From Rhodospirillaceae bacterium (GTDB taxonomy: Bacteria > Pseudomonadota > Alphaproteobacteria > UBA6615), in contig PBPM01000105.1 in assembly GCA_002724635.1 (NCBI GenBank), positions 1 through 62,470 of the forward strand: a stretch of 62,470 nucleotides of DNA. The letters are read 5' to 3'. The notes under the pieces were generated by a model, which made no database searches, had not been told where the DNA came from, and was given only the letters and a program-made list of their open reading frames with translations. A program made the translations under genes and the position numbers. Below are positions 1 through 47,969 of the stretch, piece after piece. Every line of letters starts with the position of its first letter. Positions within the stretch are counted from its first letter, which is position 1.

Positions 1-1133
1 ACGATCGGTGGGGCCGCGGGAAATGTCGTGACCACCCCCACCGCGGCGCTAATCGCAAAGATTTCGTAGAATGTGACGATACCGCCGTCCCGGGTCAGCG
101 GAATGTTGGCGAGCAGGAGTTCCCCCATGGCGCCGCCGACCCCGGAATGGTTGGCGATCGCGCCCATACCGATCACGCCGGCGACGAACAGCCACGCCCC
201 GTAATTCACTTCGTTCGTGATAACGGATGCCGACAGGATCCCGACTCCCGGCGTAATGCAGAGTAGCGCCGCGGCGAGTGCGATCCAGGCCGGTGAGATA
301 CCGTGCAGGGAATCCGTCATCCACAAGGCCAGCGCGATCAGCATTATGCCCATCAGGCGCCGCTCGGCGCTACTCCAGCCGGTTTGAATGGCGGGCTTGC
401 CCTTGGGCTCGGGCTTCGCGCCGAAAAGGATTGTGATCAGCAAGATTACGATCAATGCGCCTAGGAATCCGGCCACCGGGAAATTGAGGAAGGTGTAGCC
501 GAAATAGGTGAAGCCGACCCCAAAAATGCTCTCGGATGCGCCTACGAAGGCCATGTTGACGACGTTAGACGGAAGGATTCCGAAGGCCGGTATCGTGGTG
601 CCCCAGCCCGCGGCCATTACCAGGCCATGGCGCGCCCGCGTATTTTCGCCGAACCCGAGTTCGGTGGCGAGCGCGACGGCTAGCGGGGCCATCATGACTG
701 CGCGTCCGGATGCCGAGGGCATTATGAAGCTGAGCAGGACGCCGGCGATGGCGAGTCCACCTGCCATCAGCAGGTAGCGGGCCGGCAGGTGATTCATCAA
801 CGCCTGCACTATACGCGACGCGAGCCCGGACTTGTGGACCGCGATCGAAATGACGAACCCGCCGAACACTAGCCAGGTGGCACTCGCATGGAAGCCGGAG
901 AATGCCACATTCGGCGGGGCTATCGCGAACACGACGGTGAGCAGGAAAAGGAGCAGCGCCGTGATGTGTGCTGGGATGGCGCCGGTAGCCCATAAGGCGA
1001 TGGCGAACAGCACGACGCCGGCGGCCGGCAACATACCAGGCGTGTCGGACCACAGAGGTGCGGCCAGAAGGACGACCGTGACTAGGGCCGAAAGCAATCC
1101 GGAAATCTGGGCGGCGTTGAGCCGGGTATCCAT
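1..1133 (-). CDS. SLC13/DASS-family anion transporter (partial, 3' end outside window)
   Basis: Read on the reverse complement, an open frame starts at ATG 1133 (an in-frame ATG also lies at 1145) and stays open to the window edge, giving about 377 residues. The product is very hydrophobic, with repeated membrane segments, and contains a Ser-rich re-entrant-loop motif (SASGRAVMMAPLAVALA, about residues 145-161) and a second GILPSNVVNMAF stretch. Both are typical of the divalent-anion:sodium symporter (DASS/SLC13) group, which imports sulfate or di/tricarboxylates across the inner membrane. The substrate cannot be told from what is visible. The gene diverges from the hydratase/dehydrogenase gene at 1361, and the roughly 225-bp gap must carry both promoters. 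A TRAP- or CitM-like carrier is a weaker alternative. Confidence 0.75.
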   Translation of the reverse strand, partial: MDTRLNAAQISGLLSALVTVVLLAAPLWSDTPGMLPAAGVVLFAIALWATGAIPAHITALLLFLLTVVFAIAPPNVAFSGFHASATWLVFGGFVISIAVHKSGLASRIVQALMNHLPARYLLMAGGLAIAGVLLSFIMPSASGRAVMMAPLAVALATELGFGENTRARHGLVMAAGWGTTIPAFGILPSNVVNMAFVGASESIFGVGFTYFGYTFLNFPVAGFLGALIVILLITILFGAKPEPKGKPAIQTGWSSAERRLMGIMLIALALWMTDSLHGISPAWIALAAALLCITPGVGILSASVITNEVNYGAWLFVAGVIGMGAIANHSGVGGAMGELLLANIPLTRDGGIVTFYEIFAISAAVGVVTTFPAAPPI

Positions 1134-1360
1134 CGGTAAGCGCATGCGCGGTCGATTCAGGCGGCCGATCTTAGCCAAGGGTTTGGGCAATTTATTTAGA
1201 GGTCAGTCTAGCAATCGCCTTGCGGATGCGCGAGGCACCGTACGGTCTGGTCAGCCATGCGAAAGCCGCGTACATGGTCCGGCGCGGTTTGGACGCGCGG
1301 CGTAATTCTCGTAAGGTGCCGTTCGCGATCCAGTATTTATACGTCGCAACGGGGGAGTCT

Positions 1361-3490
1361 ATGCCGAGCGCGTCTTCCAGCGATCTCGTCCTTTATGAAA
1401 GGGACGGCGGCGTCGCGTTGATCACGATCAATAATCCGCCGGTGAATGCGCTGGCGAAAGATGTGCGCATAGCGGTTGCCGATTTCCTCGAGGCGGCGGC
1501 CGATGATCAAGCGGTGCTCGTGGTGACGATCCGGGGCAATGGACGTAATCTGTGCGGCGGTGCGGACATCCGAGAATTCAACACTCCGGATCGCGAGGTC
1601 CGGCCGATGACCCGTGATCTGATGAACCTGATCGAGGCGATGGAGAAGCCCGTTGTGGCAGCGATTCATGGTCCGACCCTAGGCGGCGGCCTGGAACTAG
1701 CGCTTGGTTGTCACTACCGCATGGTGCATCCGGATGCCCGACTCGGATTGCCCGAAGTGTTGCGGGGTGTCATTCCGGGGGCAGGCGGCACCCAGCGCCT
1801 GCCGCGGCTCGTCGGTTTTGCGAAGGCGGTCGAGATGATCACGACCGGCAGTTCAGTTGATCCTGGGACAGCACTGGAACTGGGACTGGTCGACCAAATG
1901 GCCGTCGGCGACGATTTTCTGGACGAAGTGATGCGATTTGCGCGCAACCTGATCGCCTGCGACGCCGGTCCGCGGCGGGTCAGCGAGATGACGGTCGATC
2001 TGGATGCTGAAGCCGGTACCGCGCTGGTGGCAGAGATTCGCACACAGCTTGAGAGGACCGCACGGGGGATGCAGGCACCCTTCCGATGCCTGGAGAGTGT
2101 AGCCAATACGCTTAGCATGCCGTTCGCCGACGGTTGGGTCCGAGAGGCGGAGATTAGCCGGGAAACCATTGCGTCGGTGGAATCCCGTTCACTGGTCCAT
2201 GCCTTCTTCGCAGAGCGTCAGGTCTCACGCATTCCCGACATTTCCGCTGCGACCGCAAGGCGCACGATCAAACGAACCACAATCATCGGTGCGGGCACGA
2301 TGGGCGGCGGCATCGCCATGTCGTTTGCCAATTCCGGCCTGCCGGTAACCTTGGTCGAGACCGGGCAGGAGGCACTGGACGGGGGGCTCGCGCGAATCGA
2401 GGCCAACTACGCGGCGACCCGTGACCGTGGTCGCCTGAGCGCCGCGGATATGGAGGCGCGCATGCGGCTGATCACCGGCGCGGTGGGCATCGATGCCGCG
2501 GCCGATGTCGACCTAGTGATCGAGGCCGTTTACGAGGAGATGGGTGTTAAGCAGTCGGTGTTCCGCGACCTCGACCGGATCGCCCGCGACGGCGCGATCC
2601 TAGCGACTAACACCTCGACTCTGGATGTCGATGCGATCGCCGCTGTCACGCAGCGACCCGGCGATGTGCTGGGCCTACATTTCTTCAGCCCCGCCAACGT
2701 TATGACCCTGCTCGAGATCGTCCGGGCGGAGAAGACGGAGAATGATGTCATTGCGACGGTGCTCGACTTGTCGAGCCGGATCGGCAAGACCGGTGTCGTG
2801 GTCGGCGTGTGCGATGGCTTCGTCGGCAATCGCATGCTCGCGCCGTATTTTCGCCAGTGCGACTTCCTCGTTGAGGAAGGCGCGATGCCTGAAGACATGG
2901 ACCGGGTAGCCGAGGAATTCGGATTCCGCATGGGGCCGTTTCGGGTGTCGGACCTTGCCGGGCTCGACATCAGTTGGGCGATCGAGAAGCGCCGAGCCGA
3001 AACGCGGCCGGTGGCCGAGCGGTTCTCGCCGCTCCTCCAGCGCATTTGTGAGTTGGGGCGCCATGGACAGAAGACCGGTGCCGGCTGGTATCGCTATGAG
3101 GGCCGCAGCGCGATTCCCGACCCGGAGGTCGCCGCGCTGATCTACACCCGTTCCGACGAGATGGGTATTGCGCGCCGGGCGATTTCTGATGAAGAGATCC
3201 GTCAACGAATGATCTATTCGCTTATCAACGAGGGAGCAAAGATACTAGAGGAAGGCCTCGCGATCCGGTCCTCGGACATCGACGTTGTCTGGCTGCACGG
3301 CTACGGCTTCCCGCGCTGGCGCGGTGGGCCGATGTTCTATGCCGACATGGTGGGCCTGCCCGAAATCGTCGCGACCCTCGACGGCTATCACGTTGAGTGG
3401 GGCGACAAGTGGGAACCAGCGGCGCTCCTGCGCGAGCTCGCCGATGCTGGCTCCAGCTTTCAGGAATGGGACGAGGGGCGCGCAGCCTGA
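1361..3490 (+). CDS. Bifunctional enoyl-CoA hydratase / 3-hydroxyacyl-CoA dehydrogenase (copy 1)
   Basis: This 709-residue protein has an N-terminal crotonase domain (about 10-200) and a C-terminal NAD-dependent 3-hydroxyacyl-CoA dehydrogenase (about 300-700), like FadJ or peroxisomal MFE1. It should hydrate 2-enoyl-CoA and oxidise the resulting 3-hydroxyacyl-CoA. Visible motifs are GGGLELALG (about 108) and GLPEV (about 129), which supply the two crotonase glutamates. There is also a Rossmann GAGTMGGG (about 310) and the catalytic-His motif [10 protein letters not shown] (about 439) followed by the partner Glu. I chose ATG 1361 because GGGGGAG lies just upstream and homology begins there; longer upstream frames look non-coding. 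It converges with the SDR at 3494, leaving 3 bp. A close paralogue lies at 10973. Confidence 0.9.
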
Positions 3491-3493
3491 ACG

Positions 3494-4261
3494 TCAGACC
3501 GGCACCGTCGCGCCGCCGTCCACGACCAGCACCTGACCGGTCATCCAGCTCGCCGCGTCAGAGGCGAGGTAAACGGCCGCACCGGCGATGTCCTCGGGCT
3601 CACCGAGACGGCGCAGCGGCGTTGCGGCGATCCGCGGGTCGGCAAATTTCGGATCCTCCCAAAGCGCACGCGCAAAATCCGTCTTCACCAGCCCGGGCGC
3701 GATCGCATTCACCCGGATGTTGTCGGGCCCGAGTTCGACGGCAAGGTTGCGGGCGAGCTGCATGTCCGCGGCCTTGGAAATATTGTAGGCGCCGATCACG
3801 TCTGAGCCGCGCAGGCCGCCGATCGACGAGACGAGGATGATAGCACCGCCACCCTTGGTCCGCATTTCCGGCACGGCCAACTGTGACAGCCAAAGCTGTG
3901 ACTGGATGTTGGTTTGCATGATCTTGGCGAACACACTGTCGGGGATCTCCATCGCCGGTCCGTAATAGGGATTAATGGCCGCGTTGCAGACCAGAATGTC
4001 CGCCGGTCCCCAATGATCACGGGAGGCACTGGTCAGCGCCGCAAGCTCGTCCTTGCGCCCGATATTGCACGGCACCCCAAGGGCCTCGTACCCTGCATCA
4101 GCGAGCGCTGCGGCGGTTCTCGCAACCCGGTCCTTGTCCCGGCTTGAGACGGTTACCCGAGCTCCCGCGTCGGCCAGCGCGAAGGCGACGGCGCGCCCGA
4201 TGCCCTTCGTCGCGCCGGTGACGATGGCGACTTTCCCCGCGAGATCGAGCGACACGCCCAT
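3494..4261 (-). CDS. Short-chain dehydrogenase/reductase (SDR)
   Basis: A 255-residue classical SDR, the usual length for the family. The N-terminal TGATKGIG cofactor motif is at residues 15-22, NAA follows in the middle, the catalytic Ser is in the VSSIGG segment, and Tyr159-x3-Lys163 completes the active site. The C-terminus ends in the common VDGGATV pattern. It should perform NAD(P)-dependent interconversion of a hydroxyl and a keto group. The start at 4261 is preceded by GGGGGAA at a good distance. It is divergent from the acyl-CoA dehydrogenase at 4358, so the 96-bp gap probably holds two promoters. In the lva (levulinate) pathway an SDR reduces 4-oxoacyl-CoA to 4-hydroxyacyl-CoA; a 3-hydroxyacyl dehydrogenase role is equally compatible with the sequence. 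Confidence 0.88.
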   Translation of the reverse strand: MGVSLDLAGKVAIVTGATKGIGRAVAFALADAGARVTVSSRDKDRVARTAAALADAGYEALGVPCNIGRKDELAALTSASRDHWGPADILVCNAAINPYYGPAMEIPDSVFAKIMQTNIQSQLWLSQLAVPEMRTKGGGAIILVSSIGGLRGSDVIGAYNISKAADMQLARNLAVELGPDNIRVNAIAPGLVKTDFARALWEDPKFADPRIAATPLRRLGEPEDIAGAAVYLASDAASWMTGQVLVVDGGATVPV

Positions 4262-4357
4262 GACGATTCCCCCATTTGTGTCGTTTGAAGGTATCCTAGG
4301 CGAAGTTATGACATTGGACACCCGCCCGCACGAGGCGGGAAACCATAGGGGAAAAAC

Positions 4358-5581
4358 ATGAAATTCGACCTGTCGCAACGCTGCAATGAGATGCGCGCTG
4401 AGCTGCTCGCGTTCATGGACGAGTTCATCTATCCGAATGAGGAGACGTTCGAGGAACAGCTCAGCAGCCAGGGGACGCGCTGGCACACGCCGCAGATCGT
4501 TGACGACCTTAAGGCCGAGGCGAGAAAACGCGGCCTTTGGAACCTTTTCCTGCCCGACGAGCATCACGGCGCCGGGCTGACTAACGTCGAGTACGCGCCC
4601 CTGTGCGAGATCATGGGGCGCGTCGATTGGGCGCCGGAGGTGTTCAACTGCAACGCGCCGGACACCGGCAATATGGAGGTGCTGCACATGTACGGCACCC
4701 CGGCGCAGCAGGACGAATGGCTCACGCCCCTGCTCAACGGCGAGATCCGTTCGGCCTTCGCCATGACCGAGCCTGACGTCGCCTCGTCGGATGCCACCAA
4801 CATCAGATGCTCGATCACCCGTGACGGCGATTCGTATGTGATCAATGGCCGCAAATGGTGGACGTCCAATGCGGGCAACCCGCGCTGCAGAATCATGATC
4901 GTCATGGGGAAGACGGACCCGTCGGCCGCCCGCCACGAGCAGCAGTCGCAGATTCTTGTCCCCAGCGAGACGCCCGGGGTGACGATCGAACGCATGCTCA
5001 ACGTTATGGGTTATGACGACGCGCCCCACGGCCATGCGGAGGTGGTCTTTGACAACGTTCGAGTGCCGGCGGAAAATTTACTGGTCGGCGAGGGGCGCGG
5101 CTTCGAGATCGCTCAGGGTCGGCTCGGGCCGGGGCGCATCCATCACTGCATGCGGGTAATCGGCGTGGCCGAGCGCGCGCTCGAAGCTATGTGCAAGCGT
5201 GCCGCCAAACGCGAGACTTGGGGCAAGCTGCTGGCCGAGCGCGGCATCACAGAAGAACGCATCGCCCAGTCTCGTATCGAGATCGAGATGTGCCGCCTCT
5301 TAGTGATGAAGGCGGCCTGGATGATGGACACAGTCGGCAACAAGGAGGCACGCCAAGAGATCGCGATGATCAAGGTCGCAGCGCCGAATATGGCGCTCGG
5401 CGTGATCGACCGAGCGATGCAACTGCATGGTGGTGGCGGCATGAGCGACGACTTTCCGCTGGCGGCCATGTATGCACGAACCCGTGCCATGCGGCTGTTC
5501 GACGGGCCCGACGAGGTGCATCGGCGCCAGATCGCGCGCCTAGAGCTGCGCCGGCAGGTCGACGGGTGGCCGCGCAAGTGA
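4358..5581 (+). CDS. Acyl-CoA dehydrogenase family protein, ACAD10/11-like
   Basis: A 407-residue flavoprotein of the acyl-CoA dehydrogenase fold. The FAD/substrate motif [16 protein letters not shown] sits around residue 140 and [13 protein letters not shown] around 160. The C-terminal region reads [16 protein letters not shown] and then DGPDEVH starting at Asp382. In ordinary acyl-CoA dehydrogenases the last motif is YEGT with the catalytic Glu; the Asp-Gly-Pro-Asp-Glu form is what I associate with ACAD10/11 and LvaC-type proteins. A GGGGAAA ribosome-binding site precedes the ATG. An APH-like kinase, the partner fused to this domain in eukaryotic ACAD10/11, lies at 9288. That supports dephosphorylation/dehydration of 4-phospho-acyl-CoA, but plain dehydrogenation is not excluded. 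Confidence 0.88.
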
Positions 5582-5740
5582 TCTGTCTTGGCGTGATCGT
5601 GGTGACGTTCGAGGTCTGGCCTACGGAGGACCGGCTCGCCCATCATCCCGACATCGCTAACTAGCTCGCCTCTGAGCCCTCGAAGATCGTCGGCTTCATT
5701 ACAAAAACCGCAGCATATAAACTTTCTAGGGATCCGCTTC

Positions 5741-6988
5741 ATGAGCGAACCACGCAACCTCTCCATCGACGGTGATCGGCTCTGGCAGTCGATTATGGAT
5801 ATCGCTGCGATCGGCCCGACCGAGAAGGGCGGCAGCCGGCGCCTCGCGCTGACAGACCTCGACCGCGAGGCGCGGGACCTGTTCGTCGACTGGTGCGATG
5901 CTGCGGGCTGCACCGTCAGCGTGGACCGGATGGGCAACATCTTCGCCCGGCGCGGCGGGCGGGACGATAGCCTGCCACCTGTGGTGACGGGGAGCCACCT
6001 CGATACGCAACCAACCGGAGGTAAGTTCGACGGGATTTTTGGTGTTCTGGCTGGCCTTGAGGTGATCCGCAGCCTCAATGATTTGGACTACGCGACCGAC
6101 CACCCGATTGAGGTGGTGGTCTGGACCAACGAGGAGGGTAGCCGTTTCGCACCCGCCATGATCTCATCGGGCGTCTTTGGCGGTCAGCATACTTTGGAGC
6201 ATGGCCTATCCCGCACGGACGCAGACGGACTGACCATCGGTGAGGAGCTAGAACGGATCGGCTATGCAGGTGATCTACCCGTCGGAGGCCGGGAGTTCCA
6301 CGCCTATGTCGAGGCGCATATCGAGCAGGGGCCGATCCTCGAGGAAGAGAATATCTCTATCGGCGTCGTCACCGGCGCTCAGGGCCAGCGCTGGTACGAG
6401 ATCACGCTCACCGGCCGGGAATCTCATGCGGGCACAACGCCTATGGAGCGGCGCAAGGATGCGCTCTTGGGGGCCGCGCGGGTCGTCAATCTAGTTAACA
6501 GGATCGGTATGGATAATGCGCCAGATGCGCGCTCGACCGTCGGCATTATTGAATCCTACCCTAACTCGCGGAATGTTATTCCCGGACAGGTCTTCATGAC
6601 AGCGGAGTTCCGACATCCCGATGACGGTATTCTGCGCCAGATGGATACGAAGCTGCGGGACGGGATGCGGACAATCGTGCACTCGATCGGCCTCGAGAGC
6701 CAGTTTGAGGAGATCTTCTATATCGAACCAATAGTCTTCTCCGAGCGTTGCGTTGAGGCCGTTCGCAATGCCGCCACGCGCCGTGACTTAACGACCCGGG
6801 ATATCGTCTCCGGCGCGGGCCATGACGCTTGCAACGTCGCGGCCGTGGCGCCTGCCTCGATGATATTCATTCCCTGCGTAGATGGGATCAGTCACAACGA
6901 GATCGAGTATGCGAAGCCCGAATGGGTAACCGCCGGCGGCCAGGTGCTATTGGGTGCGATGCTGGAGCTCGCCGGCACCAAGTCTTGA
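5741..6988 (+). CDS. Hydantoinase/carbamoylase-family amidase (N-carbamoyl-L-amino acid hydrolase, M20-like)
   Basis: A 415-residue member of the M20-type amidohydrolases that remove a carbamoyl group from N-carbamoyl amino acids or beta-ureidopropionate. Metal-binding and active-site motifs are present: GSHLDTQPTGGKFDG (about 87-101), the EEGSRF segment (about 130), and the lid/dimerisation stretch GRESHAGTTPMERRKDA. A late His-containing SGAGHDACN motif also belongs to the family. The length is normal. It is preceded by a 159-bp gap with an AT-rich stretch. It sits inside an acyl-CoA cluster with no hydantoinase next to it; the nearest related cyclic amidohydrolase is at 24637. Allantoate amidohydrolase is a possible alternative substrate class. 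Confidence 0.88.
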   Translation: MSEPRNLSIDGDRLWQSIMDIAAIGPTEKGGSRRLALTDLDREARDLFVDWCDAAGCTVSVDRMGNIFARRGGRDDSLPPVVTGSHLDTQPTGGKFDGIFGVLAGLEVIRSLNDLDYATDHPIEVVVWTNEEGSRFAPAMISSGVFGGQHTLEHGLSRTDADGLTIGEELERIGYAGDLPVGGREFHAYVEAHIEQGPILEEENISIGVVTGAQGQRWYEITLTGRESHAGTTPMERRKDALLGAARVVNLVNRIGMDNAPDARSTVGIIESYPNSRNVIPGQVFMTAEFRHPDDGILRQMDTKLRDGMRTIVHSIGLESQFEEIFYIEPIVFSERCVEAVRNAATRRDLTTRDIVSGAGHDACNVAAVAPASMIFIPCVDGISHNEIEYAKPEWVTAGGQVLLGAMLELAGTKS

Positions 6989-7046
6989 TTGGCGCGCCCC
7001 GCGGCTCCGACTAGACTTTCGTAAATGTATTCGGGGGGGGATAGGC

Positions 7047-8693
7047 ATGAAAATCTCAGAAACATACGAGCAGGCGTGGGGCGACTGGCACTGGGAGGTG
7101 CCGGAACTCTTCAACATGGGGGTCTCCATCTGCGACGCGCAAGACGCGAAGGCCACCGCTCTGATCGTGCCGCAGCCTAATGGTGGGCGGCGCGATTATA
7201 CCTTCGGTGATCTGAAGGCGCTGTCGAGCCGTCTGTCCAACCTGTTCGTGGCGCACGGCCTCCAGCGTGGCGACCGGGTCGCGGTGCTGCTGCCGCAGCG
7301 GCCCGAGACGCTCGTGGCCCACATCGCGGGCTATCGTGCCGGACTGATAGTGATGCCGCTGGCGCAGCTGTTCGGGCCAGACGCGCTTGAATACCGGCTG
7401 TCGGACAGCGGTGCGCGAGCAATCGTCACGGACAGCGTGAGTTGCGAGAAGTTAACCCAGATCAGGGATTCGCTTCCCGACCTTCAGCTGGTTCTTTCGG
7501 TAGACGGGCCGGCTGATGACGGGGCCGGGGGCGCACTCGATTTCCACGCCGAGTTAGAGCGTGCGAAGGACAGCTTCGCCCCGGTCGATACCGCGAACGG
7601 CGATCCCGCGCTGCTGATCTACACCTCGGGCACTACAGGGAACCCGAAGGGCGCGCTGCTGCCTCACCGGACGATGATCGGCCATGTGCCGGGCGTCGAT
7701 TTCATCTTCGACTTCCTGCCGCAGCCGGGCGACGTCATGTGGACCAACGCCGATTGGGCGTGGATAGGCGCCCTGATGGATTCGGCCATGCCAGCGCTCT
7801 ATCACGGCATCCCACAGGTGGTAAATCCGTCCGCCCGCTTCGACCCAGAGGCGGTGTTCGACCTGCTCGACCGTTACGGTGTGCGCTGCGCCTTCATCCC
7901 GCCAACGGGCCTCAAGGTGATGCGCCAAGTGGAGAATCCGCGCGGCCGCTACAACTACGATCTGCGCACCATGTTCTCGGGCGGCGAGGCGCTCGGCACC
8001 TCACTAATGGACTGGGGCCGCGAGCAGCTGGGCGTCACCATCAACGAGGCCTACGGCCAGACTGAGTGCAACGTGATCGTTGGCTGCTGCGCGACCATCA
8101 TGACGCCGCCGGACGGCTCCATGGGTCGTGCCTCGCCGGGGCACACGCTTCGAATCATGGACGAGGATGCCAACATCCAGGCGGCCGGTGATCTCGGCAC
8201 CATCTGCGTCAAGGCGCCGGATCCGGTGATGTTTCTCGAATATTGGAATAACCCGGAGGCGACCGAGGAGAAATTCCTCACCGACGAGAATGGCGATCGT
8301 TGGCTCGACACCGGCGACAAGGCGACCATGGACGACGAGGGCTGGATCTACTTCGTCGGCCGGGCCGACGACGTAATCAACTCGGCCGGCTACCGGATCG
8401 GCCCGGCCGAGGTCGAGAACTCGCTGTTGACCCATCCCGCCGTGCAGATGTCGGCGGTGATCGGCGTACCCGACGAAGCGCGCGGCGAGATGGTGAAGGC
8501 CTATGTGATCCTGAAGGATGGGCAGACCCCGAGCGACGCGCTCGCCGGGGAAATCCAGAACCATGTGAAGACGCGGCTCGCGGCGCACGAGTATCCGCGT
8601 GCGGTCGAGTTCGTGGACGCGCTGCCGATGACGACGACGGGCAAGATTCAACGCATGGTCCTGCGCGAGCAGGAGGCGGCGAAGGAATCCTGA
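7047..8693 (+). CDS. AMP-dependent acyl-CoA synthetase
   Basis: A 548-residue adenylate-forming ligase that should activate a carboxylic acid to its CoA thioester with ATP. Signature motifs are LIYTSGTTGNPKGALLPH (about 190), YGQTECN (about 335), DTGDKA in the hinge region, and the C-terminal TTTGKIQR with the catalytic Lys. The general pattern resembles the medium-chain/acetyl-CoA-synthetase-like group. ATG 7047 is chosen because a G-rich ribosome-binding site (7033-7040) precedes it and the homologous region starts there. The next gene (MaoC-like) begins 3 bp after the stop, so they form an operon. In an lva-like pathway this would be the LvaE-type activating enzyme; substrate identity is not visible. 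Confidence 0.9.
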   Translation: MKISETYEQAWGDWHWEVPELFNMGVSICDAQDAKATALIVPQPNGGRRDYTFGDLKALSSRLSNLFVAHGLQRGDRVAVLLPQRPETLVAHIAGYRAGLIVMPLAQLFGPDALEYRLSDSGARAIVTDSVSCEKLTQIRDSLPDLQLVLSVDGPADDGAGGALDFHAELERAKDSFAPVDTANGDPALLIYTSGTTGNPKGALLPHRTMIGHVPGVDFIFDFLPQPGDVMWTNADWAWIGALMDSAMPALYHGIPQVVNPSARFDPEAVFDLLDRYGVRCAFIPPTGLKVMRQVENPRGRYNYDLRTMFSGGEALGTSLMDWGREQLGVTINEAYGQTECNVIVGCCATIMTPPDGSMGRASPGHTLRIMDEDANIQAAGDLGTICVKAPDPVMFLEYWNNPEATEEKFLTDENGDRWLDTGDKATMDDEGWIYFVGRADDVINSAGYRIGPAEVENSLLTHPAVQMSAVIGVPDEARGEMVKAYVILKDGQTPSDALAGEIQNHVKTRLAAHEYPRAVEFVDALPMTTTGKIQRMVLREQEAAKES

Positions 8694-8696
8694 CTT

Positions 8697-9158
8697 ATGG
8701 CCAGGTTTTCTCATCCCGATGTGTTCCTCGATCTGGTTGGTGAGGATCTCGGCGTCAGCGACTGGGTCCTGATCGATCAGACGATGATCGACGCATTCGC
8801 CGATGCGACCAACGACCATCAATGGGTGCATGTGGACACCGAACGGTCCTCCCGCGAACTGCCCACCAGATCGACCATCGCCCACGGGTTTCTAGTACTC
8901 TCGTTGCTTGCACCGCTCAGCTACGAGATATTCGATGTCGACAATGTCGCCCACGAGCTGAACTACGGGCTCAACAAGGTGCGCTTCACGGCCATGGTAC
9001 CGGCGGGATCGCTGGTGCGCCTGCGCCAGGCGCTGACGAATGCCGAGAAGCGCGACGACGGCGGGGTCTATCTCGATTTGCTGGCGACGATGGAGCTTCA
9101 GGGCAGCGAACGCCCAGCCGCGGTGATCGAGAATCTGCGGCTAATATACCCCGGGTAG
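8697..9158 (+). CDS. MaoC-like (R)-specific enoyl-CoA hydratase, copy 1
   Basis: A 153-residue single hot-dog-fold protein. The hydratase-2 motif is visible as FADATNDHQWVHVD, with the Asp and His expected for catalysis, followed by TIAHGFLVLSLL. Family members hydrate trans-2-enoyl-CoA to (R)-3-hydroxyacyl-CoA or act as thioester dehydratases. It is translationally close to the CoA ligase upstream (3-bp gap) and converges with the kinase gene at 9288. It is very similar along its whole length to the leftward MaoC gene at 10361 (shared NYGLNKVRFTAMVP block), so the two are recent paralogues. The small size and lack of a second domain are typical. Confidence 0.87.
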   Translation: MARFSHPDVFLDLVGEDLGVSDWVLIDQTMIDAFADATNDHQWVHVDTERSSRELPTRSTIAHGFLVLSLLAPLSYEIFDVDNVAHELNYGLNKVRFTAMVPAGSLVRLRQALTNAEKRDDGGVYLDLLATMELQGSERPAAVIENLRLIYPG

Positions 9159-9287
9159 GGTGCGTCGGCCTGAACACCGCCGTCACGTCCGTGCCTTCCT
9201 TTTTCGTCATACGCGGACTTTACCCGGCTGCCCCGGCACAGTCTGGGATGAGATGTTAGGGTCAAGCTCGGGCCTGATAGCGCAGGC

Positions 9288-10364
9288 TTATTGACCGTCC
9301 GCCTCCACCAGGTCCCACGCACGGATCGAAAGCTGTCGAGTCAGGTCCCGGCGCAGCAGGGCCTCTGGCGAGGATGCGTTACCCTGTAGCCCGCGGTAGT
9401 AAACGCCTTGGATGATCGCCGCGAGCCGAAACAGCGACAAGACCAAGTAGAAGTTCCAGTTCTCGATCCCGTCACGACCAGTCGCCCGGCAATAGGCATC
9501 GACATAGTCGGTCTCCGACGGAATGCCCGGAGTGGTCGCATCGAGCCCGCGCATATCACCGAAGGATTTCTCGGGCCAGTGATAAGGAAGGCAGTTGTAC
9601 GCGAGATCGGACAGGGGGTGGCCCAGCGTCGAGAGTTCCCAGTCGAGGACGGCGATCACCTTCGGTTTGTCATGGGCGGCGATCAGGTTCTCAAGTCGGA
9701 AGTCCCCGTGAACGATGGTGGTCTCGTTGTCGTCGGGCATGTTTTCGGGCAGCCAGACCATTAGCCGGTCCATCTCGGGCAACTCGTCGGTCTTCGAGGC
9801 CTCGTATTGCTTCGACCAGCGCGCGACTTGGCGGCCCATATAGCCGCCGACCCGGCCATAGTCGCCGAGGCCGGCCGCCTTGAAGTCCACTTGGTGCAGG
9901 GCGGCGAGGGTCTCGATCATCGAATCGTAGATCGCTGCGCGTTCGCTTTCCGGTAGTTCGGGCAGGGACGGGTCGTGGAACACGCGCCCGTCGGCGTGGT
10001 CCATAAGGAAGAACTCGGTGCCGACGATGGACGTTTCCTCGCAGAGTGCAAGCGTACGTACGACGGGCACGGCGGTGTCGGCTAACGCCGAGGTGATCCG
10101 GTACTCCCGGTCGACCGCATGAGCCGAGGGCAGCAACTCGCCCGGCGGCTTCTTGCGCAGGACGTAGCGCCGGCCGCCCGCATCGGTCAGGAGGAAGGTC
10201 GGATTCGACATGCCGCCCTGGAACTGGGCGATCTCCAGCGGGCCCTCGAATCCCTCAATATTGCCCGCAATCCAGGCGACGAGCGCTGTGTCGTCGAAAC
10301 GGTGCTGCTCCAGAACTGGGACGACGTGGTCGGTGCGGGAAAATGTGCGATCTATGGCGCTCAT
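9288..10364 (-). CDS. APH-like phosphotransferase (ACAD10/11- or LvaA-type kinase)
   Basis: A 358-residue protein kinase-like/aminoglycoside-phosphotransferase fold enzyme. The N-terminal lobe contains the YVLRKKPPGELLPSAHAV segment with the ATP-binding Lys. The catalytic loop is HGDFRLENL (His about 219), followed by the metal-binding VLDWELSTLGHPLSDLAY. These features mark the subgroup usually annotated 'phosphotransferase family protein' beside acyl-CoA dehydrogenases; it is not an antibiotic resistance gene. In ACAD10/11 the same kinase domain is fused to an ACAD domain and phosphorylates 4-hydroxyacyl-CoA; in the lva pathway LvaA does this. It follows the MaoC gene at 10361 with a 4-bp overlap, so both belong to one leftward operon. 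Confidence 0.88.
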   Translation of the reverse strand: MSAIDRTFSRTDHVVPVLEQHRFDDTALVAWIAGNIEGFEGPLEIAQFQGGMSNPTFLLTDAGGRRYVLRKKPPGELLPSAHAVDREYRITSALADTAVPVVRTLALCEETSIVGTEFFLMDHADGRVFHDPSLPELPESERAAIYDSMIETLAALHQVDFKAAGLGDYGRVGGYMGRQVARWSKQYEASKTDELPEMDRLMVWLPENMPDDNETTIVHGDFRLENLIAAHDKPKVIAVLDWELSTLGHPLSDLAYNCLPYHWPEKSFGDMRGLDATTPGIPSETDYVDAYCRATGRDGIENWNFYLVLSLFRLAAIIQGVYYRGLQGNASSPEALLRRDLTRQLSIRAWDLVEADGQ

Positions 10365-10840
10365 GTGCTTGCCCCGATAGGCTCGGGGTAGAGCAGGCGT
10401 ACGGTCTGGGCGATGGCGGCGGGGCGTTCGCTGCTTTCGAGCTCAATGACAGAGTCGAGGACGAGGTGCACGCTGCCGTCGGGGCGTTTTTCAGCGCTCG
10501 CCAAGGACTGGCGCAGGCGGACCCGCGAATTCACTGGCACCATGGCGGTGAACCGTACCTTGTTGAGCCCGTAGTTGATGGTGTGGGCGAGGTTATCGAC
10601 CGCGAAGAAGGGATAGCTCAGCCCCGGGATCAGGGAAAGGACGAGGAAGCCGTGGGCGATGGTCGTGCCGGTCGGCATCTCGTTTGCGGCGCGCTCTGGA
10701 TCAACATGCAGCCACTGGTGGTCGTTTGTAACCTCTGCGAAGGCGTCGATCTGTGCCTGGTCGATGGTGACCCAGCCGCTGACGCCGAGTTCTTGGCCCA
10801 CCTTGTCTAGAAACTCGTCGGGATGTCCGTAGTGAGACAA
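10361..10840 (-). CDS. MaoC-like (R)-specific enoyl-CoA hydratase, copy 2
   Basis: A 159-residue single hot-dog-fold hydratase. Catalytic pattern FAEVTNDHQWLHVD and the following TIAHGFLVLSLI are intact. It shares long identical blocks with the protein encoded at 8697, including NYGLNKVRFTAMVP, and ends with a short C-terminal extension not present there. It starts at 10840 and its stop overlaps the start of the kinase gene (ATGA arrangement). The two are therefore probably translated together, which ties the hydratase to the kinase/ACAD chemistry. It diverges from the multifunctional enzyme gene at 10973. The reaction is presumably enoyl-CoA hydration; a dehydration direction is also possible. 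Confidence 0.87.
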   Translation of the reverse strand: MSHYGHPDEFLDKVGQELGVSGWVTIDQAQIDAFAEVTNDHQWLHVDPERAANEMPTGTTIAHGFLVLSLIPGLSYPFFAVDNLAHTINYGLNKVRFTAMVPVNSRVRLRQSLASAEKRPDGSVHLVLDSVIELESSERPAAIAQTVRLLYPEPIGAST

Positions 10841-10972
10841 TTTCTGTACTCCGTTTGACCGTTCAATTGACCGGGGGGTCGGCCCTGCGCATCATGGCCG
10901 CGCGTGGCTAATATTCTAGAGCCATGGAAGAGGTTTTGCATATGTGCAGGTACGATCCCGGGGGGAGCGGAG

Positions 10973-13066: not shown

Positions 13067-13193
13067 GCGGCACCTGCAACCTGACCGCGCCAACGTGATT
13101 TCGGGTTTCCCCCGAAAGGCGGACGTTCTTGGTGCTTTTCAATGTGCGGGCGATATGGTCCCATAGGTAAAACCATTTAGGGAGGAGCTGAAA

Positions 13194-18831: not shown

Positions 18832-20400
18832 CTAGCTTCGCAGCTTGAACCGCTGGATCTTGCCTGTCGCCGTCTTCGGCAGCTCGTCCACGAAGCGGAC
18901 CCAGCGGGGGTACTTGTAGCGGGCGAGCGCTTCCTGGCAGAAGGCCTTGAGCTCCTCAGCGAGCGCGTCGGAGGCGTCGCCCGCATCTTTCAGGATCACG
19001 AATGCCTCGGGCTTGATTAGCTCCTCGTCGTCCGCCCGCCCGATCACCGCGGCTTCGAGCACGGCATCGTGGGCGACCAGCCGTGCCTCGATCTCCACCG
19101 GGGAGACCCAGATGCCGCCGACCTTGAGCATGTCGTCGCTGCGCCCGTGGCAGGTAAAGTAGCCGCCCTCATCGACCGAGTAAGAATCGCCGGTCCGGAT
19201 CCATCCGTGGGTGATGGCGGCGGCGGTGCGCTCGGGCTGGTTCCAGTAGCGCGAAGTGATCGAATCCCCCCGGATCATCAGGTTGCCGACCTCGCCGGTG
19301 GTGACCGGCTGGTCTTCGTCGTCGACGATCCGCGCCGCGTAGCCGGGGATGATCTTGCCGCTGGTGCCTGGCTTCGCGTCGCCGGGCCGGTTTCCGATGA
19401 AAATGTGTAGGATCTCCGTTGTGCCGATCCCGTCGAGGATCGTGATGCTAGTGCGTTCGCGCCAGCGCTCGAAAAGGGTTGCGGGCAGGGGCTCGCCGGC
19501 TGATACGCAGGCCCGCAGGCTCGAGAAGTCGGCTTCCGTTGTCTCCAACGCGTGCAGCTGGGCCGCGAACAGCGTTGGCACCGCGTAGCAGATCGTCGGG
19601 CGGTAGCGTTCGATATGGTCGGCCATAATCTCGGGCGTGGGCCGCCCGGCGAACAGCACTGCTTGGCCGCCGGTCCACAGTGGAAACATCAAGGCGTTGC
19701 CGAGCCCGTAGGCGAAGAACAGCTTTGCGGCGGAGAAATGGACATCATCCGCTGTGACCCCGAGTGTCTCGACACCGTAATACTGGCTGCACACCACCAT
19801 ATCTTGGTGGGCGTGGACCGCGCCCTTCGGCGTCCCCGTTGAGCCCGAGGTGTAGAGCCAGAAGCAGTCGGCGTCGGCAGTCGCCGGCGCGGCTTCGAGC
19901 TCGACCGAGGCCTCCGCCATGCGTTCTGCGAGGCTGTCCTCTCCCTCCGTGGAGAAACTGTGGGCCGGGTTCGCCATGGCGATTGCGGGGGCTATGGTCT
20001 GGGCGAACTCCGGCGACCAAATGACACAGCTCGCACCCGAATCCTCGATGATAAACTCGTGGTCGCCCGCTCGTAGGAGTGTGTTCACGGGCACCGGCAC
20101 GAAGCCGGCCTTGATCGCGCCCCAGAAAGCGAAGAAAAAGGCCGGGCAGTCCTTGATGGCGAGAATCACCCGGTCGCCGCGCGTGAGCTCCAGTGCGGCG
20201 AGCGCGTTGCCTGCGCGGTTCACGCCCTCGGCGAGCTGGATATAGGTCGTGTCGCCGTCGTTGTCCCGGATCACCACCTTGTCGCCCCGGCCTTCGTCGA
20301 TATGCCGGTCGATGAACGGCACCGCCACGTTGAACTGCTCCGCATAGGTCAGCGTCGCGGGGCTGGTGGACGTATCGACGGTGACGGTATTGGGCTGCAT
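18832..20400 (-). CDS. bclA: Benzoate-CoA ligase family protein
   Basis: A 522-residue adenylate-forming enzyme of the benzoate-CoA ligase group. It carries WLYTSGSTGTPKGAVHAHQD (P-loop, about residue 172), DGIGTTEILHIF (about 310), an RTGDSY hinge region and the C-terminal TATGKIQRFKL with the catalytic Lys. The TEILHIF version of the A5 motif is the one I associate with benzoate, rather than acetate or fatty-acid, ligases. Expected reaction: benzoate + ATP + CoA to benzoyl-CoA. I start it at 20400, after GAGGGAAC; a longer frame to 20508 is derived from a repeat element. It lies downstream of boxB, so benzoyl-CoA is made and consumed by one gene cluster. Confidence 0.87.
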   Translation of the reverse strand: MQPNTVTVDTSTSPATLTYAEQFNVAVPFIDRHIDEGRGDKVVIRDNDGDTTYIQLAEGVNRAGNALAALELTRGDRVILAIKDCPAFFFAFWGAIKAGFVPVPVNTLLRAGDHEFIIEDSGASCVIWSPEFAQTIAPAIAMANPAHSFSTEGEDSLAERMAEASVELEAAPATADADCFWLYTSGSTGTPKGAVHAHQDMVVCSQYYGVETLGVTADDVHFSAAKLFFAYGLGNALMFPLWTGGQAVLFAGRPTPEIMADHIERYRPTICYAVPTLFAAQLHALETTEADFSSLRACVSAGEPLPATLFERWRERTSITILDGIGTTEILHIFIGNRPGDAKPGTSGKIIPGYAARIVDDEDQPVTTGEVGNLMIRGDSITSRYWNQPERTAAAITHGWIRTGDSYSVDEGGYFTCHGRSDDMLKVGGIWVSPVEIEARLVAHDAVLEAAVIGRADDEELIKPEAFVILKDAGDASDALAEELKAFCQEALARYKYPRWVRFVDELPKTATGKIQRFKLRS

Positions 20401-20475
20401 TCGGATGTTCCCTCGTTCGTGTTTGCTGCGCCCGACTTTTGGTGAGCGACCCGTAGTCGATGTTTCACTCGAGTC

Positions 20476-20567
20476 GTCATCCCTGCGCAGGCAGGGGTCC
20501 ATTAACACATTCGTCTGCCGTTTCGGACATCGGCGTCAATGGGTTCCCGCCTTCGCGGGAGTGATGA
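20476..20567. repeat. Dispersed palindromic repeat (REP-like), copy 1
   Basis: A block of about 90 bp between the ligase and boxB genes has a GC-rich hairpin at each end. The left hairpin reads ccctgcgcaggcaggg and the right one cccgccttcgcggg. Related blocks occur at 25976 and 27886 with the same order of 'tca', hairpin, 'ccata/ccatt', spacer, and a second hairpin. This matches the small palindromic repeats that are spread between genes in many alphaproteobacteria. It could act as a terminator or RNA processing site inside the box operon. Confidence 0.65.
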
Positions 20568-20581
20568 GCCTCATAACCCCC

Positions 20582-22000
20582 TCAGTGAAAAAGTACATAC
20601 TCGTAGTCGATGGGCCGGCCGTGGATGCCGCGCTTGGGCGGCGCGATCCAGCTCGCCATCTTGCCCGGCTCCGTCACCGGCACCATGAGCGAGTTCACAT
20701 TGGCGTGGTCCTCATCGGTCGGTAGCCACGCGTCCTTGCGTTTGGTCCACGCCTCGGCCGAGATGATCTCGCCTTCGGGCGTCGCCTCGATGCCCGAATA
20801 GATGCCGATCGACCGGTTGAACTTCTCGTCGGGCAGGGTGAGCGCCACGTCGATGTCGTGGGCGGCGATCATCTTGTTGAACCGGTTGAGCCCGCGCTGG
20901 CTGTCGGCCGTATAGTCCTGGCGGAGCTTCAGGTTCATGGCCGTCAGCGCCGCAATGGTCTCGGTATCGATGGTGCCGTCGTCTGCGACTTTTGGAATCT
21001 CCATCTGCTCCCCGTCGAGCCGGTGATCGTCGTGGAGCTTTGTCTCCTGGTAGCGCCCCTTGAGCCCCATGGAGAAGTAGTTGGCGGCGTTGGTAGAGCG
21101 CTCGGATCCGAACAGGTCGAGGCAGATCGAGTAATGGAAGTTGATCCACTTCTGGATGGTCTCGAGGTTGATGCCGCCGAAGGGGCGCACATCCGTCGTG
21201 TCGTGCTGCCGCATCAGCTCGCAAGTGCGCTGCAGGACGCGCATGACGCCGGTCTCGCCCACGAACATGTGGTGGGCCTCTTCGGTCAGCATGAAGCGGC
21301 AGGTGCGCGACAGCGGATCGAAGCCCGACTCCGCTAGCGCTGCCAGCTGGAACTTGCCGTCTCGGTCCTGAAAGTAGGTGAACATGAAGAAGGACAGCCA
21401 GTCGTTCGTCTGCTCGTTGAAAGCCTTAAGAATGCGCGGCCGGTCCGGGTCGCCCGCGTGTCGCTCGAGCATCTCGTCGGCCTCCTCGCGCCCGTCGCGC
21501 CCGAAATAGGCGTGCAACAGATAGACCATCGCCCACAGGTGGCGGCCCTCCTCGACATTCACCTGGTAGAGGTTCCGCAGGTCATAGAGCGACGGCGCTG
21601 TGCGGCCGAGCTGGCGCTGCTGCTCGACCGAGGCGGGCTCGGTGTCGCCTTGGGTGACGATCAGGCGGCGGAGCTCGGTGCGGTACTCGCCCGGCACCTC
21701 GGTCCAGACTGGTTCGCCCTTGTGTGCGCCAAAGCCGATCTCGCGGTTGGGCGCGGGCGCGGCCAGAAAGATGCCCCAGCGATAGTCGGGCATCTTCACA
21801 TGGTCGAAATGTGCCCAGCCGTCGGTGTCCACGCTGATGGCGGTGCGCAGATAGACCTGAGGGTCGGTGGATGCGGCCGGCCCCATCTCCTTCCACCACC
21901 GAATATAGGCGGGATGCCAGCGTTCGAGCGCGCGCAGCAGGCGGCGGTCATCGCCCAGGTTGACATTGTTGGGGATGGTCTCGTTGTAGTCGGCTTTCAT
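20582..22000 (-). CDS. boxB: Benzoyl-CoA 2,3-epoxidase, oxygenase subunit BoxB
   Basis: A 472-residue protein, nearly the same length as characterised BoxB (about 475). The start MKADYNETIPNNVNLG matches the family N-terminus, so I start at 22000 rather than further upstream. BoxB is a class I diiron oxygenase that converts benzoyl-CoA to the 2,3-epoxide using O2 and electrons from BoxA. Ligand motifs are present: EEGRHLWAM (about residues 148-156) and EEAHHMFVG (about 238-246), where the Glu and His metal ligands fall near the expected positions. It begins 4 bp after the boxC stop, so both are co-translated. No boxA gene is seen in the window, so the reductase must come from elsewhere or be replaced. 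Confidence 0.95.
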   Translation of the reverse strand: MKADYNETIPNNVNLGDDRRLLRALERWHPAYIRWWKEMGPAASTDPQVYLRTAISVDTDGWAHFDHVKMPDYRWGIFLAAPAPNREIGFGAHKGEPVWTEVPGEYRTELRRLIVTQGDTEPASVEQQRQLGRTAPSLYDLRNLYQVNVEEGRHLWAMVYLLHAYFGRDGREEADEMLERHAGDPDRPRILKAFNEQTNDWLSFFMFTYFQDRDGKFQLAALAESGFDPLSRTCRFMLTEEAHHMFVGETGVMRVLQRTCELMRQHDTTDVRPFGGINLETIQKWINFHYSICLDLFGSERSTNAANYFSMGLKGRYQETKLHDDHRLDGEQMEIPKVADDGTIDTETIAALTAMNLKLRQDYTADSQRGLNRFNKMIAAHDIDVALTLPDEKFNRSIGIYSGIEATPEGEIISAEAWTKRKDAWLPTDEDHANVNSLMVPVTEPGKMASWIAPPKRGIHGRPIDYEYVLFH

Positions 22001-22004
22001 TATC

Positions 22005-23660
22005 TCAGATCCGCCTGCGGTCATATTCGGGTTGCCTGCCGGTGCCATAGAGCTCCAGCGCGCCGTCGTCGCCGACGGCGTTGGGGCGTTGGAAAATCCA
22101 GTTTTGCCAAGCGCTCAGCCGCGCAAAGATCTTGCTCTCGATGGTCTCGGGTCCTGGGAAGCGAAGGCTCGCCTCCATGCCCGTCAGCGCGTCGGGCGAG
22201 AAGGCAGCGCGTGCCTCGATCGCAAGCCGCACCTCGTCATCCCAGTCGATGTCGTCGGGGGCGAAGGTGACGAGGCCGAGTTCCTCGGCGTCGTTCGCCT
22301 CGAGGTCGGTGCCGACCGCGGCTGCGGCCGCGGCCAGCGCGTCGTCGTCGCCGTAGAAGCGGGTCTGGAGCCGGTTTAGGCCGGTGCACATCTCAAGCGG
22401 GCCCGTGTTCATGCCGGTTAGCCGGACCGTTGCGGGCGGTAGGTTCGAGCCTTCTTCCTCGAGCGTGCCGTCGAGCATGTAGGACCGGTCGGCGGCGAGC
22501 GCGAGTTCGAACAGCGTGCCGGTAAAGCAGGAGCCGGGCTCGATCAGCGCGATCAGCGAGCGCGCCGACACGTCGATGCGCTTCAGCGTGCGGCGCAGAT
22601 AGAGCGTGATCTCGCGGACCAGCCAGTCGCCGGCGTGGTAGAGCAGGGTTGCGTCATGGGCTGCCACCATCTCCGGGTCGCCCTCGGTCCGGAACATCCA
22701 GGTGCCGATCTCGGTCTCGTTGAAGCGCAGGTGCAGGATCGCGTCGTCGAGCGCGCGGGCGATCGCCAGCGGCCAGAAGTCGACGCCGGCGTCATGGATG
22801 CCGGCCGCATCGTTCGGCGGTGCCGTGTCGGGCCCCCGAAGGGTGAAGGTTGCCGTCCGCGCGGACCGGTCGAGCGCGACGGTCAGGTTAGGATAGGTGA
22901 TTGCGTCGTCCGACAGCTCGCGGGCAAGCGGCGAGAGTTCGATGCCTTGCGCGTCGGCGGGCCGGTCGCTCAACGCGATTCGGGCGTCCGTGCGTGCGCT
23001 AACGGTCTCCTCGAACTTCGAGCGGGGCACTAACGTGTCCACCAGTTTCCATTCGAGCGCGCGGCGTCCACGCAAACCCTCGCCGGTGGTGCAAAAGAAG
23101 TCGGCCCGGTCGCGGCGCACATGGCGCTTGTCGACCACGCGGGTCAGCCCGCCGGTGCCCGGCAGCACTCCCAGCAGCGGTACCTCGGGCAGGGAGACGG
23201 CGCTCGACCCGTCGTCGATCAGCAGGATCTCGTCGCAGGCGAGCGCCAGCTCGTAACCGCCGCCGGCCGCCGTGCCGTTCACCATGCAGATATAGGCCTG
23301 GCCCGAGTTCGCGCTCGCATCCTCGATGGCATTCCGGGTCTCGTTGGTGAACTTGCAGAAGTTCACCTTTTGGTCATGGCTCGAGCCCTTGAGCATCGGG
23401 ATGTTGGCCCCGGCGCAGAAGACCCGCTCCATCGCCGACGTCACGACCACCGCGGCCACCTCCGGGTGCTCGAAACGCAGGCGCTGGACGGAGTCGTAGA
23501 GCTCGATATCGACACCGAGGTCGTAGGAGTTGAGCTTGAGCTCGTAGCCCGGCGCCAACCCGCCGGCTTCGTCCACGTCGAGGGTCAGGGTTGCCACCCG
23601 GCCGTTGACGGAAAGCCGCCAGTGGCGGTAGCGGTCAGGGTGTGTTTCAAACACGATCAT
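22005..23660 (-). CDS. boxC: 2,3-Epoxybenzoyl-CoA dihydrolase (BoxC)
   Basis: A 551-residue enzyme with two crotonase-like halves, the size of known BoxC. It opens the epoxide ring and removes formate, giving 3,4-dehydroadipyl-CoA semialdehyde. Visible features: the N-terminal ETHPDRYRHWRL segment typical of BoxC, the CoA-binding FCAGANIPML (about residue 90), GTAAGGGYELALACDEIL (about residue 130) and SLPEVPLLGVLPGTGGL. The start ATG 23660 has GAGGAG about 12 bases upstream. It is the first gene of the leftward box operon and diverges from the hydrolase gene at 23774, so the 113-bp gap should contain the operon promoter. Confidence in the family is high; flux through the pathway is inferred. 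Confidence 0.95.
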   Translation of the reverse strand: MIVFETHPDRYRHWRLSVNGRVATLTLDVDEAGGLAPGYELKLNSYDLGVDIELYDSVQRLRFEHPEVAAVVVTSAMERVFCAGANIPMLKGSSHDQKVNFCKFTNETRNAIEDASANSGQAYICMVNGTAAGGGYELALACDEILLIDDGSSAVSLPEVPLLGVLPGTGGLTRVVDKRHVRRDRADFFCTTGEGLRGRRALEWKLVDTLVPRSKFEETVSARTDARIALSDRPADAQGIELSPLARELSDDAITYPNLTVALDRSARTATFTLRGPDTAPPNDAAGIHDAGVDFWPLAIARALDDAILHLRFNETEIGTWMFRTEGDPEMVAAHDATLLYHAGDWLVREITLYLRRTLKRIDVSARSLIALIEPGSCFTGTLFELALAADRSYMLDGTLEEEGSNLPPATVRLTGMNTGPLEMCTGLNRLQTRFYGDDDALAAAAAAVGTDLEANDAEELGLVTFAPDDIDWDDEVRLAIEARAAFSPDALTGMEASLRFPGPETIESKIFARLSAWQNWIFQRPNAVGDDGALELYGTGRQPEYDRRRI

Positions 23661-47466: not shown

Positions 47467-47493
47467 CACTTGTTTTTGCTGGTCGGGCACACG

Positions 47494-47741
47494 TCAGTGC
47501 AGTTCAAAGGACTTCGCGAAGTTGCGGAATTTCGGCGGTGCGATTATCTCGGTGTGGCCGACCCGGTCCGAGCGGGGTGGGCTTTCCAGATTCTTGATCC
47601 AGAAGCCTAGGAACTTTTGTAGTTTGGGGAACTCGGGCGGATAGCCGAGCTTCGGCCAGACGAAATGCTGCGGATGCCAGAATGATCGGGCGTGTGATCG
47701 ATGATCTCGGCGGTGGTCATCTGCGACCCTTCCAGCTGCAT
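47494..47741 (-). pseudogene. Frameshifted remnant of an unknown gene
   Basis: On the leftward strand a frame opens at ATG 47741 (MQLEGSQMTTAEIIDHTPDH). It continues smoothly in another frame as FWHPQHFVWPKLGYPP through to a stop at 47494, ending KFRNFAKSFELH. The switch falls at about 47682. The two parts together read like one protein of about 83 residues with aromatic-rich, protein-like composition, which suggests a one-base deletion or a sequencing error. I do not recognise the family. It sits between the transporter and groES operons. If the sequence is right it is not functional. Confidence 0.45.
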
Positions 47742-47807
47742 CACCAAGCCCTTACGCAATATTGATACCTCTTTCTTGGCTCATACCAAATCGCCAGAGG
47801 ATTTGAA

Positions 47808-47835
47808 TTATCCGAAGCCGCATGCATGCGGATAA
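47808..47835. promoter_or_regulatory. Nested palindrome, possible operator
   Basis: A perfect 14-bp palindrome (ccgcatgcatgcgg, 47818-47831) lies inside an outer inverted repeat: ttatccg at 47808 and cggataa at 47829. It is about 130 bp upstream of the groES promoter and just upstream of the gene remnant. I recognise no known regulator site. It might belong to the remnant's lost promoter or to a second groES control. Confidence 0.35.
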
Positions 47836-47939
47836 GAAACAACGTTTAACTTCAGAACATTAGCACTGATCGACTGAGGGTCCTGCCAATCCGCGCCGGG
47901 ATCGGGTTAAAAAAACTCGAAACCCGCGTCCTGCGAGGG

Positions 47940-47968: not shown

Positions 47969-47969
47969 T

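Follow-up and report, generated by a model that had tools for sequence, protein, structure and literature searches.

Can the two activities that are fused in the mammalian proteins ACAD10 and ACAD11 be encoded by separate genes in a bacterial catabolic locus? The question is raised by contig PBPM01000105.1 of a Rhodospirillaceae bacterium (assembly GCA_002724635.1), a stretch of 62,470 nucleotides that we refer to as the window and that forms one contig of a 2.95-Mb alphaproteobacterial draft genome in 137 contigs. An initial annotation of this DNA had placed a short-chain dehydrogenase/reductase (SDR), an acyl-CoA dehydrogenase (ACAD) of the ACAD10/11 kind, an AMP-forming coenzyme A (CoA) ligase and an APH-family kinase within 7 kb, and had read them as four roles of the Pseudomonas lva pathway; the levulinate operon lva of Pseudomonas putida was reportedly described by Rand in 2017. 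All four genes lie where they had been placed. With a probability of about 0.83, the locus represents ACAD10/11 in a split form of stand-alone proteins, a kinase and a phosphate-eliminating ACAD-fold protein that would feed beta-oxidation. This kinase/lyase chemistry is already known from the work of others, to which the locus adds a bacterial example.

An ACAD and a kinase of the ACAD10/11 type

The argument is carried by two genes on opposite strands of the window:

4358..5581, plus strand: ACAD-fold protein of the ACAD10/11/LvaC type, predicted 4-phosphoacyl-CoA lyase, with R255, R260, H263, R266 and D382
9288..10364, minus strand: APH-family kinase, predicted 4-hydroxyacyl-CoA kinase, with H219-G220-D221, N226, D241 and R178; present in all 15 related loci described below, which were chosen by it

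Among structures in the PDB, the ACAD matches 4hr3 with 497 bits and ACAD11 with 479 bits, while other ACADs reach at most 157. It is 57% identical to human ACAD11 over 395 residues, compared with 24-36% identity to the nine other ACADs of the source genome that were compared. According to Rashan et al. (PMC12440821), R626, H634 and R637 of ACAD11 contact the phosphate, D753 is catalytic and R631 also belongs to the residue set. In printed alignments R626, R631, H634, R637 and D753 correspond to R255, R260, H263, R266 and D382 of the window protein, a mapping derived by hand in which the chain and the numbering of the paper are offset by one residue. The Asp that replaces the Glu of other ACADs is therefore D382, found in the DGPDEVH motif singled out in the initial annotation, and the Arg/His/Arg set of the phosphate-contacting helix is present as R255, H263 and R266. 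All 81 ACAD11-type rows, among which a few genomes appear twice, carry the complete R-R-H-R-D set, as does one of the 13 other ACADs of the source genome (L007).

Phylogeny gives the same grouping. A tree of 41 rows was built from 22 of the 81 ACAD11-type rows, 11 rows of a second group that we call type-2 and 8 of the 12 other source-genome ACADs. The 22 ACAD11-type rows, human ACAD11 included, split off with support of 100/99 and the type-2 group with 99/95, and the eight remaining ACADs fell outside. This tree omitted L016-L019, three of which carry Asp at position 382; in a rebuilt tree of 14 ACAD11-type rows and all 12 other source-genome ACADs, the ACAD11-type rows separated at 100/100 and L016-L019 stayed outside. 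In neither tree does the window ACAD group with Glu-type dehydrogenases, and its proposed kinship with ACAD10/11 is borne out. The proteins L016, L018 and L019, with Asp at the catalytic place and without the Arg/His residues of the phosphate site, form a clade of their own. There is good support from sequence, conserved residues and the trees for assigning the window ACAD to the ACAD10/11/LvaC type, and the protein is predicted to be a phosphate-eliminating lyase.

The kinase, which scores 171 bits with Pfam APH, matches 3dxp (373 bits) and ACAD11 (320 and 317 bits) in the PDB and is 46% identical to the kinase domain of mouse ACAD11 over 342 residues. Its HGD, Asn and Asp-Trp positions (D221, N226, D241) are invariant across 12 aligned kinases, and R176 of the ACAD11 kinase, on the CoA side, is kept as R178. 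Also conserved among the 12 is an Arg beside the Glu of helix C, whose identity with R86 of ACAD11 is unconfirmed. In the kinase tree, whose bootstrap had not settled, the window kinase and the mouse ACAD11 kinase belong to a group of six (88/99, short of the level that the tool stars), and a second lineage holds kinases accompanied by DUF6285. Membership in the ACAD10/11 lineage, as initially suggested, is well supported, and a hydroxyacyl-CoA kinase is predicted.

Conserved neighbourhood and variable insert

The surroundings of the two genes were compared in a family survey of 24 genomes including the source. The kinase was found in 18 of these, and 15 of the 17 other kinase-bearing loci were read. 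These 15 family loci were thus selected for the kinase, and several absences in them reflect contig ends or the limits of the stretches. The remaining features of the window are as follows:

3..1190, minus strand: carrier of the DASS/CitMHS family, cut by the window end; Pfam CitMHS and Na_sulph_symp above cut-off
1361..3490 (start approximate), plus strand: FadB1, fusion of enoyl-CoA hydratase and 3-hydroxyacyl-CoA dehydrogenase; 10 of 15 family loci
3494..4261 (start judged by eye), minus strand: SDR oxidoreductase; 11 of 15 family loci
5741..6988, plus strand: M20-family amidase of the allantoate/carbamoylase type, between ACAD and ligase; variable insert, 5 of 15 family loci
7047..8693, plus strand: AMP-forming acyl-CoA ligase; variable insert, 3 of 15 family loci
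8697..9158, plus strand: MaoC1 hydratase, directly 3' of the ligase; variable insert, 3 of 15 family loci
10361..10840, minus strand: MaoC2 hydratase, with a 4-base ATGA overlap with the kinase; 14 of 15 family loci
10973 (ATG)..13066, plus strand: FadB2, hydratase/dehydrogenase fusion; 14 of 15 family loci
18832..23660: benzoate-CoA ligase, BoxB and BoxC (aerobic benzoyl-CoA degradation), behind an ABC transporter

Both the kinase-MaoC overlap and the downstream fusion had been noted initially and were recovered. The carrier, FadB1, the M20 amidase, MaoC1 and the benzoate-CoA ligase, BoxB and BoxC genes are additions to the initial annotation. FadB1 and FadB2 are 49% identical and the paralogues MaoC1 and MaoC2 65%; the best PDB match of MaoC2 is 2c2i (Rv0130). 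The family keeps a core order of carrier, FadB, SDR, ACAD, kinase, MaoC and second FadB, and since this order recurs in related genomes the arrangement is more than chance. The ACAD is present in 12 of the 15 loci, and a DASS-type carrier adjoins the core in eight, with some of the rest truncated by contig ends or stretch limits; one locus (L065) has the kinase alone. Downstream of FadB2 the window continues with a branched-chain-type ABC transporter and an esterase, then benzoate-CoA ligase, BoxB and BoxC. The binding protein of this ABC transporter lies near FadB2 in 7 of 15 family loci, and BoxB and BoxC were matched in none of the 15 stretches, the majority being too short to decide the matter.

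The interval between ACAD and kinase (5741-9158) looks like an insertion site. In L068 the two genes are about 30 bases apart, and elsewhere the content of the interval varies, so the M20 amidase, the ligase and MaoC1 are not part of the core. The amidase is probably outside the module, and membership of the CoA ligase is doubtful. Of the four lva roles read initially, kinase and ACAD stand; the SDR, like the downstream FadB, is part of the conserved core, and the case for the ligase, which lies in the insert, is weak. In another family locus (L055, 5428-10037), the insert adds an amidohydrolase in two frames and a gamma-glutamyltransferase.

The lack of a visible LvaB-like small protein, also remarked on initially, holds throughout positions 1100-13200. 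Apart from the two MaoC genes, all open reading frames of 60-160 amino acids in this region overlap a larger gene or cross a MaoC gene, leaving none free-standing between genes, and the intergenic gaps of the locus are at most about 170 bases by gene coordinates. PMC6692424 gives LvaB of P. putida as a protein of 12 kDa that partners LvaA, and describes an lva-like cluster of Pseudomonas citronellolis that lies on both strands, in which no lvaB homologue was found and a histidine phosphatase gene is present instead. The family DUF2277, at first considered as that of LvaB, was dropped: 20 genomes had a match, and none of the eight loci examined more widely showed the window kinase or ACAD.

Distribution in other bacteria

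Of 289 genomes of the class, 115 have a match to the ACAD with an E value of 1e-120 or lower, and at E 1e-60 it was matched in 204 plasmid records. A wider survey started from the kinase and covered the best 80 of at least 588 loci, 46 of them longer than 17.5 kb. Of the 80, 37 have an ACAD with 50% identity or more, within 1.5 kb of the kinase in 28, and 12 have an SDR above the same threshold, at most 170 bases from the kinase in nine. With a MaoC match in 11 loci and a FadB fusion in 12, these are recurrent and not constant neighbours.

Individual loci illustrate the variation. Sphingobium has the order fadJ-ACAD-kinase, and Deinococcus deserti SDR-MaoC-small gene-ACAD-SDR-SDR-kinase-histidine phosphatase, where the small gene next to the ACAD matched nothing in Pfam. 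The plasmid-borne fadJ-ACAD-kinase run of Sphingobium (L049, 9920-17650) continues into epoxide hydrolase and P450 genes. The ACAD is also carried by Cupriavidus pHG1 and Tistrella pTM2, with no kinase match nearby. The order and composition of the window locus had been taken for an unusual variant, and they now appear less so: MaoC or FadB fusions adjoin the kinase-ACAD pair elsewhere, and the P. citronellolis cluster is likewise two-stranded and without lvaB. The pathway of ACAD10/11, for which the mammalian descriptions date from 2024-2025, is thus common as separate genes in bacteria, to judge from the frequency of the ACAD in the class, and the family synteny corrects which neighbours belong to a pathway of this type.

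Predicted pathway and alternative explanations

As the ACAD and the kinase correspond to the two halves of ACAD10/11, their roles follow from published work. PMC11342911 reports that split bacterial orthologues substituted for either ACAD10 domain in vitro. By analogy with these relatives, the APH-family kinase would use ATP to phosphorylate the 4-hydroxyl group of a 4-hydroxyacyl-CoA. With the phosphate bound by R255, H263 and R266, the ACAD-fold protein would then use flavin adenine dinucleotide and Asp382 to eliminate it, yielding 2-enoyl-CoA without net oxidation. Hydration and oxidation of the 2-enoyl-CoA in beta-oxidation could fall to MaoC2 and the FadB-type fusions, the part of MaoC being a guess. 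We further guess that the SDR interconverts 4-oxo- and 4-hydroxyacyl-CoA or the two configurations of the hydroxyl group, that the DASS-type carrier imports the acid, and that the substrate is a short or medium 4-hydroxy or 4-oxo acid. Its CoA ester might be made by the ligase of the insert or by another ligase in the genome. The bacterium, one of marine type, can probably feed 4-hydroxy acids into beta-oxidation in this way.

Several observations weigh against this proposal. Kinase and ACAD are on opposite strands and do not form one operon, and the three divergent intergenic regions showed no conspicuous common operator, a comparison for which no null was computed. No ligase is constant in the family locus, six of the 24 family genomes have no kinase at E 1e-40, and in 43 of the 80 loci of the wider survey the stretch, in many cases truncated at a contig end, shows no ACAD reaching 50% identity. 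At the residue level, R86 of the ACAD11 kinase does not fall on an Arg when the one-residue offset is applied, and Asp at position 382 occurs in 4 of the 13 other source-genome ACADs. Taken alone this Asp is not specific, because L016, L018 and L019 have it without the other residues. LvaA and LvaC sequences are absent from the trees. The source draft genome has 6.15% contamination, which is an unlikely explanation of the locus because the same locus is present in relatives.

Alternative explanations differ in how much of the locus they account for. The same kinase/lyase chemistry could act on an acyl-CoA hydroxylated elsewhere or on a ring-derived acid; the substrate position is not readable from the sequence, and there is a paralogous lineage that shares the phosphate site. 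We consider this unlikely, given that the close relatives ACAD10/11 act on 4-hydroxy acids and that phospho-acyl-CoA formed in cells given 4-hydroxyhexanoate and not in cells given 5- or 6-hydroxyhexanoate, as stated in PMC11342911. The lva pathway proper, in which ligase, SDR, kinase and ACAD would act in sequence on levulinic acid, would account for the four roles within 7 kb and could point to the P. citronellolis cluster as a two-stranded precedent without an lvaB homologue. It is nevertheless distinctly unlikely. The ligase is present in only 3 of the 15 family loci, the carrier is of the DASS type and not the acetate-type symporter of the P. citronellolis cluster, and inspection by eye of the reading frames of at least 140 amino acids in the first 20 kb, a region not searched systematically, revealed no LvaR-like regulator. 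Nothing found points to levulinate, which is not favoured as the substrate.

That FadB, MaoC and SDR serve the neighbouring box pathway, and flank kinase and ACAD by accident, is suggested by the presence of BoxB, BoxC and benzoate-CoA ligase in the window with only an ABC transporter between. We find this very improbable: local stretches of L064, L066 and L068 keep the order FadB-SDR-ACAD-kinase-MaoC-FadB and run for about 7 kb past FadB2 without an ABC transporter or box match (L067 is cut soon after FadB2). Family synteny accordingly disfavours benzoyl-CoA degradation as the purpose of FadB and MaoC. Hardly credible is an ordinary FAD-linked acyl-CoA dehydrogenase beside an unrelated APH kinase. 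Pfam and NCBIfam do give both proteins generic names only; against this stand the Asp with its complete phosphate-site set, the clade with ACAD11, the kinase in the ACAD11 lineage and the repeated pairing of kinase and ACAD in the wider survey. The split ACAD10/11 system thus remains our preferred explanation.

A second ACAD and kinase lineage

Another contig of the source genome, C22, carries the type-2 relatives in a set at L074 5746-8737, corresponding to about 45745-48736 of the contig:

L074 7967-8737, minus strand: type-2 SDR
L074 6744-7943, minus strand: type-2 ACAD, R-R-H-R-D kept, 35% identical to the window ACAD
L074 about 6735 to 5746, minus strand: type-2 APH kinase

The first PDB matches of the type-2 ACAD are again 4hr3 and ACAD11 (202 to 196 bits), with others at 161 or less, and at E 1e-90 it is matched in 48 of the 289 genomes of the class. 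The R-R-H-R-D set is kept in 30 of 30 type-2 loci, which include an adjacent APH kinase in 19, an SDR in 22 and a DUF6285 match in 11. Five annotated plasmid relatives, from Azospirillum, Pseudosulfitobacter (twice), Thermus and Haladaptatus, keep the signature, and a phosphotransferase gene adjoins the ACAD in all except Haladaptatus. In other bacteria type-2 sets often include DUF6285 and sometimes a histidine phosphatase. The partner kinase belongs to the ACAD11 lineage in L260/L280 and on the two Pseudosulfitobacter plasmids. These similarities suggest that the type-2 lineage has the same kinase/lyase chemistry.

DUF6285 itself occurs in 29 of 349 genomes of the phylum. An APH-family kinase adjoins it in 30 of 30 loci (L281-L310, two of which overlap), and open frames of 455-495 amino acids in five genomes hint at possible DUF6285-kinase fusions. 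DUF6285 was not found in the source draft genome (search controls were positive in 2 of 14) or in any of the loci L001-L233, those of the ACAD11 type included. The ACADs beside DUF6285-kinase pairs are of the Glu type in L281, L307, L308 and L309, so that some of these pairs are not lyase systems and the pairing means something else in those loci. Other points also speak against a common type-2 chemistry. The type-2 kinases do not form one group in the tree (four changes, where the ACAD11-lineage kinases need three), the two Pseudosulfitobacter kinases sit inside the ACAD11 lineage, the L190 kinase is a very long branch, and in 11 of the 30 loci no APH kinase was found in 1.5-kb flanks or wider stretches, several cut by contig ends. 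A search of the open PMC literature, little of it aimed at the type-2 lineage or DUF6285, brought up a description of neither.

We regard it as an even bet that the genome has two independent kinase/lyase systems, the type-2 proteins being undescribed, widespread phospho-hydroxyacyl-CoA lyases for a different hydroxy acid, with DUF6285 as kinase partner and perhaps, though this is a guess, as the family to which LvaB belongs. If true, a second lineage with the same phosphate site would extend the elimination chemistry to new substrates, and would matter more than the window locus.

Comparison with known systems

The closest likeness is to mammalian ACAD10 and ACAD11: both domains are homologous to those of ACAD11, catalytic Asp and phosphate-site residues are shared, and no LvaB-like gene is seen. 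In contrast to the mammalian proteins, the window has two genes on opposite strands, amid SDR, MaoC, two FadB fusions and a carrier.

With the lva operon of P. putida, as described in PMC6692424, PMC12440821 and PMC11342911, the window shares a stand-alone kinase and ACAD, an SDR nearby and, in this strain, a CoA ligase. It differs in that LvaB is not visible, the ligase is not conserved, and MaoC and FadB are present. An lvaE deletion in P. putida still grew on levulinate, according to PMC6692424. The kinases differ as well: PMC11342911 puts the identity between LvaA of P. putida and the kinase domains of ACAD10/11 at 29%, compared with the 46% of the window kinase to that of ACAD11. The LvaA and LvaC orthologues of Burkholderia pseudomallei are likewise a split kinase and ACAD, and were shown in PMC11342911 to stand in for the ACAD10 domains.

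Loci of Polaromonas, Hydrogenophaga, Marinobacter, Mesorhizobium, D. deserti and Sphingobium share the kinase and an ACAD11-type ACAD, variously combined with SDR, FadB fusion, MaoC or ligase, but the order and number of their FadB and MaoC genes differ from the window. The D. deserti locus has the histidine phosphatase in addition, and the kinase there shares only 32% identity with the window kinase.

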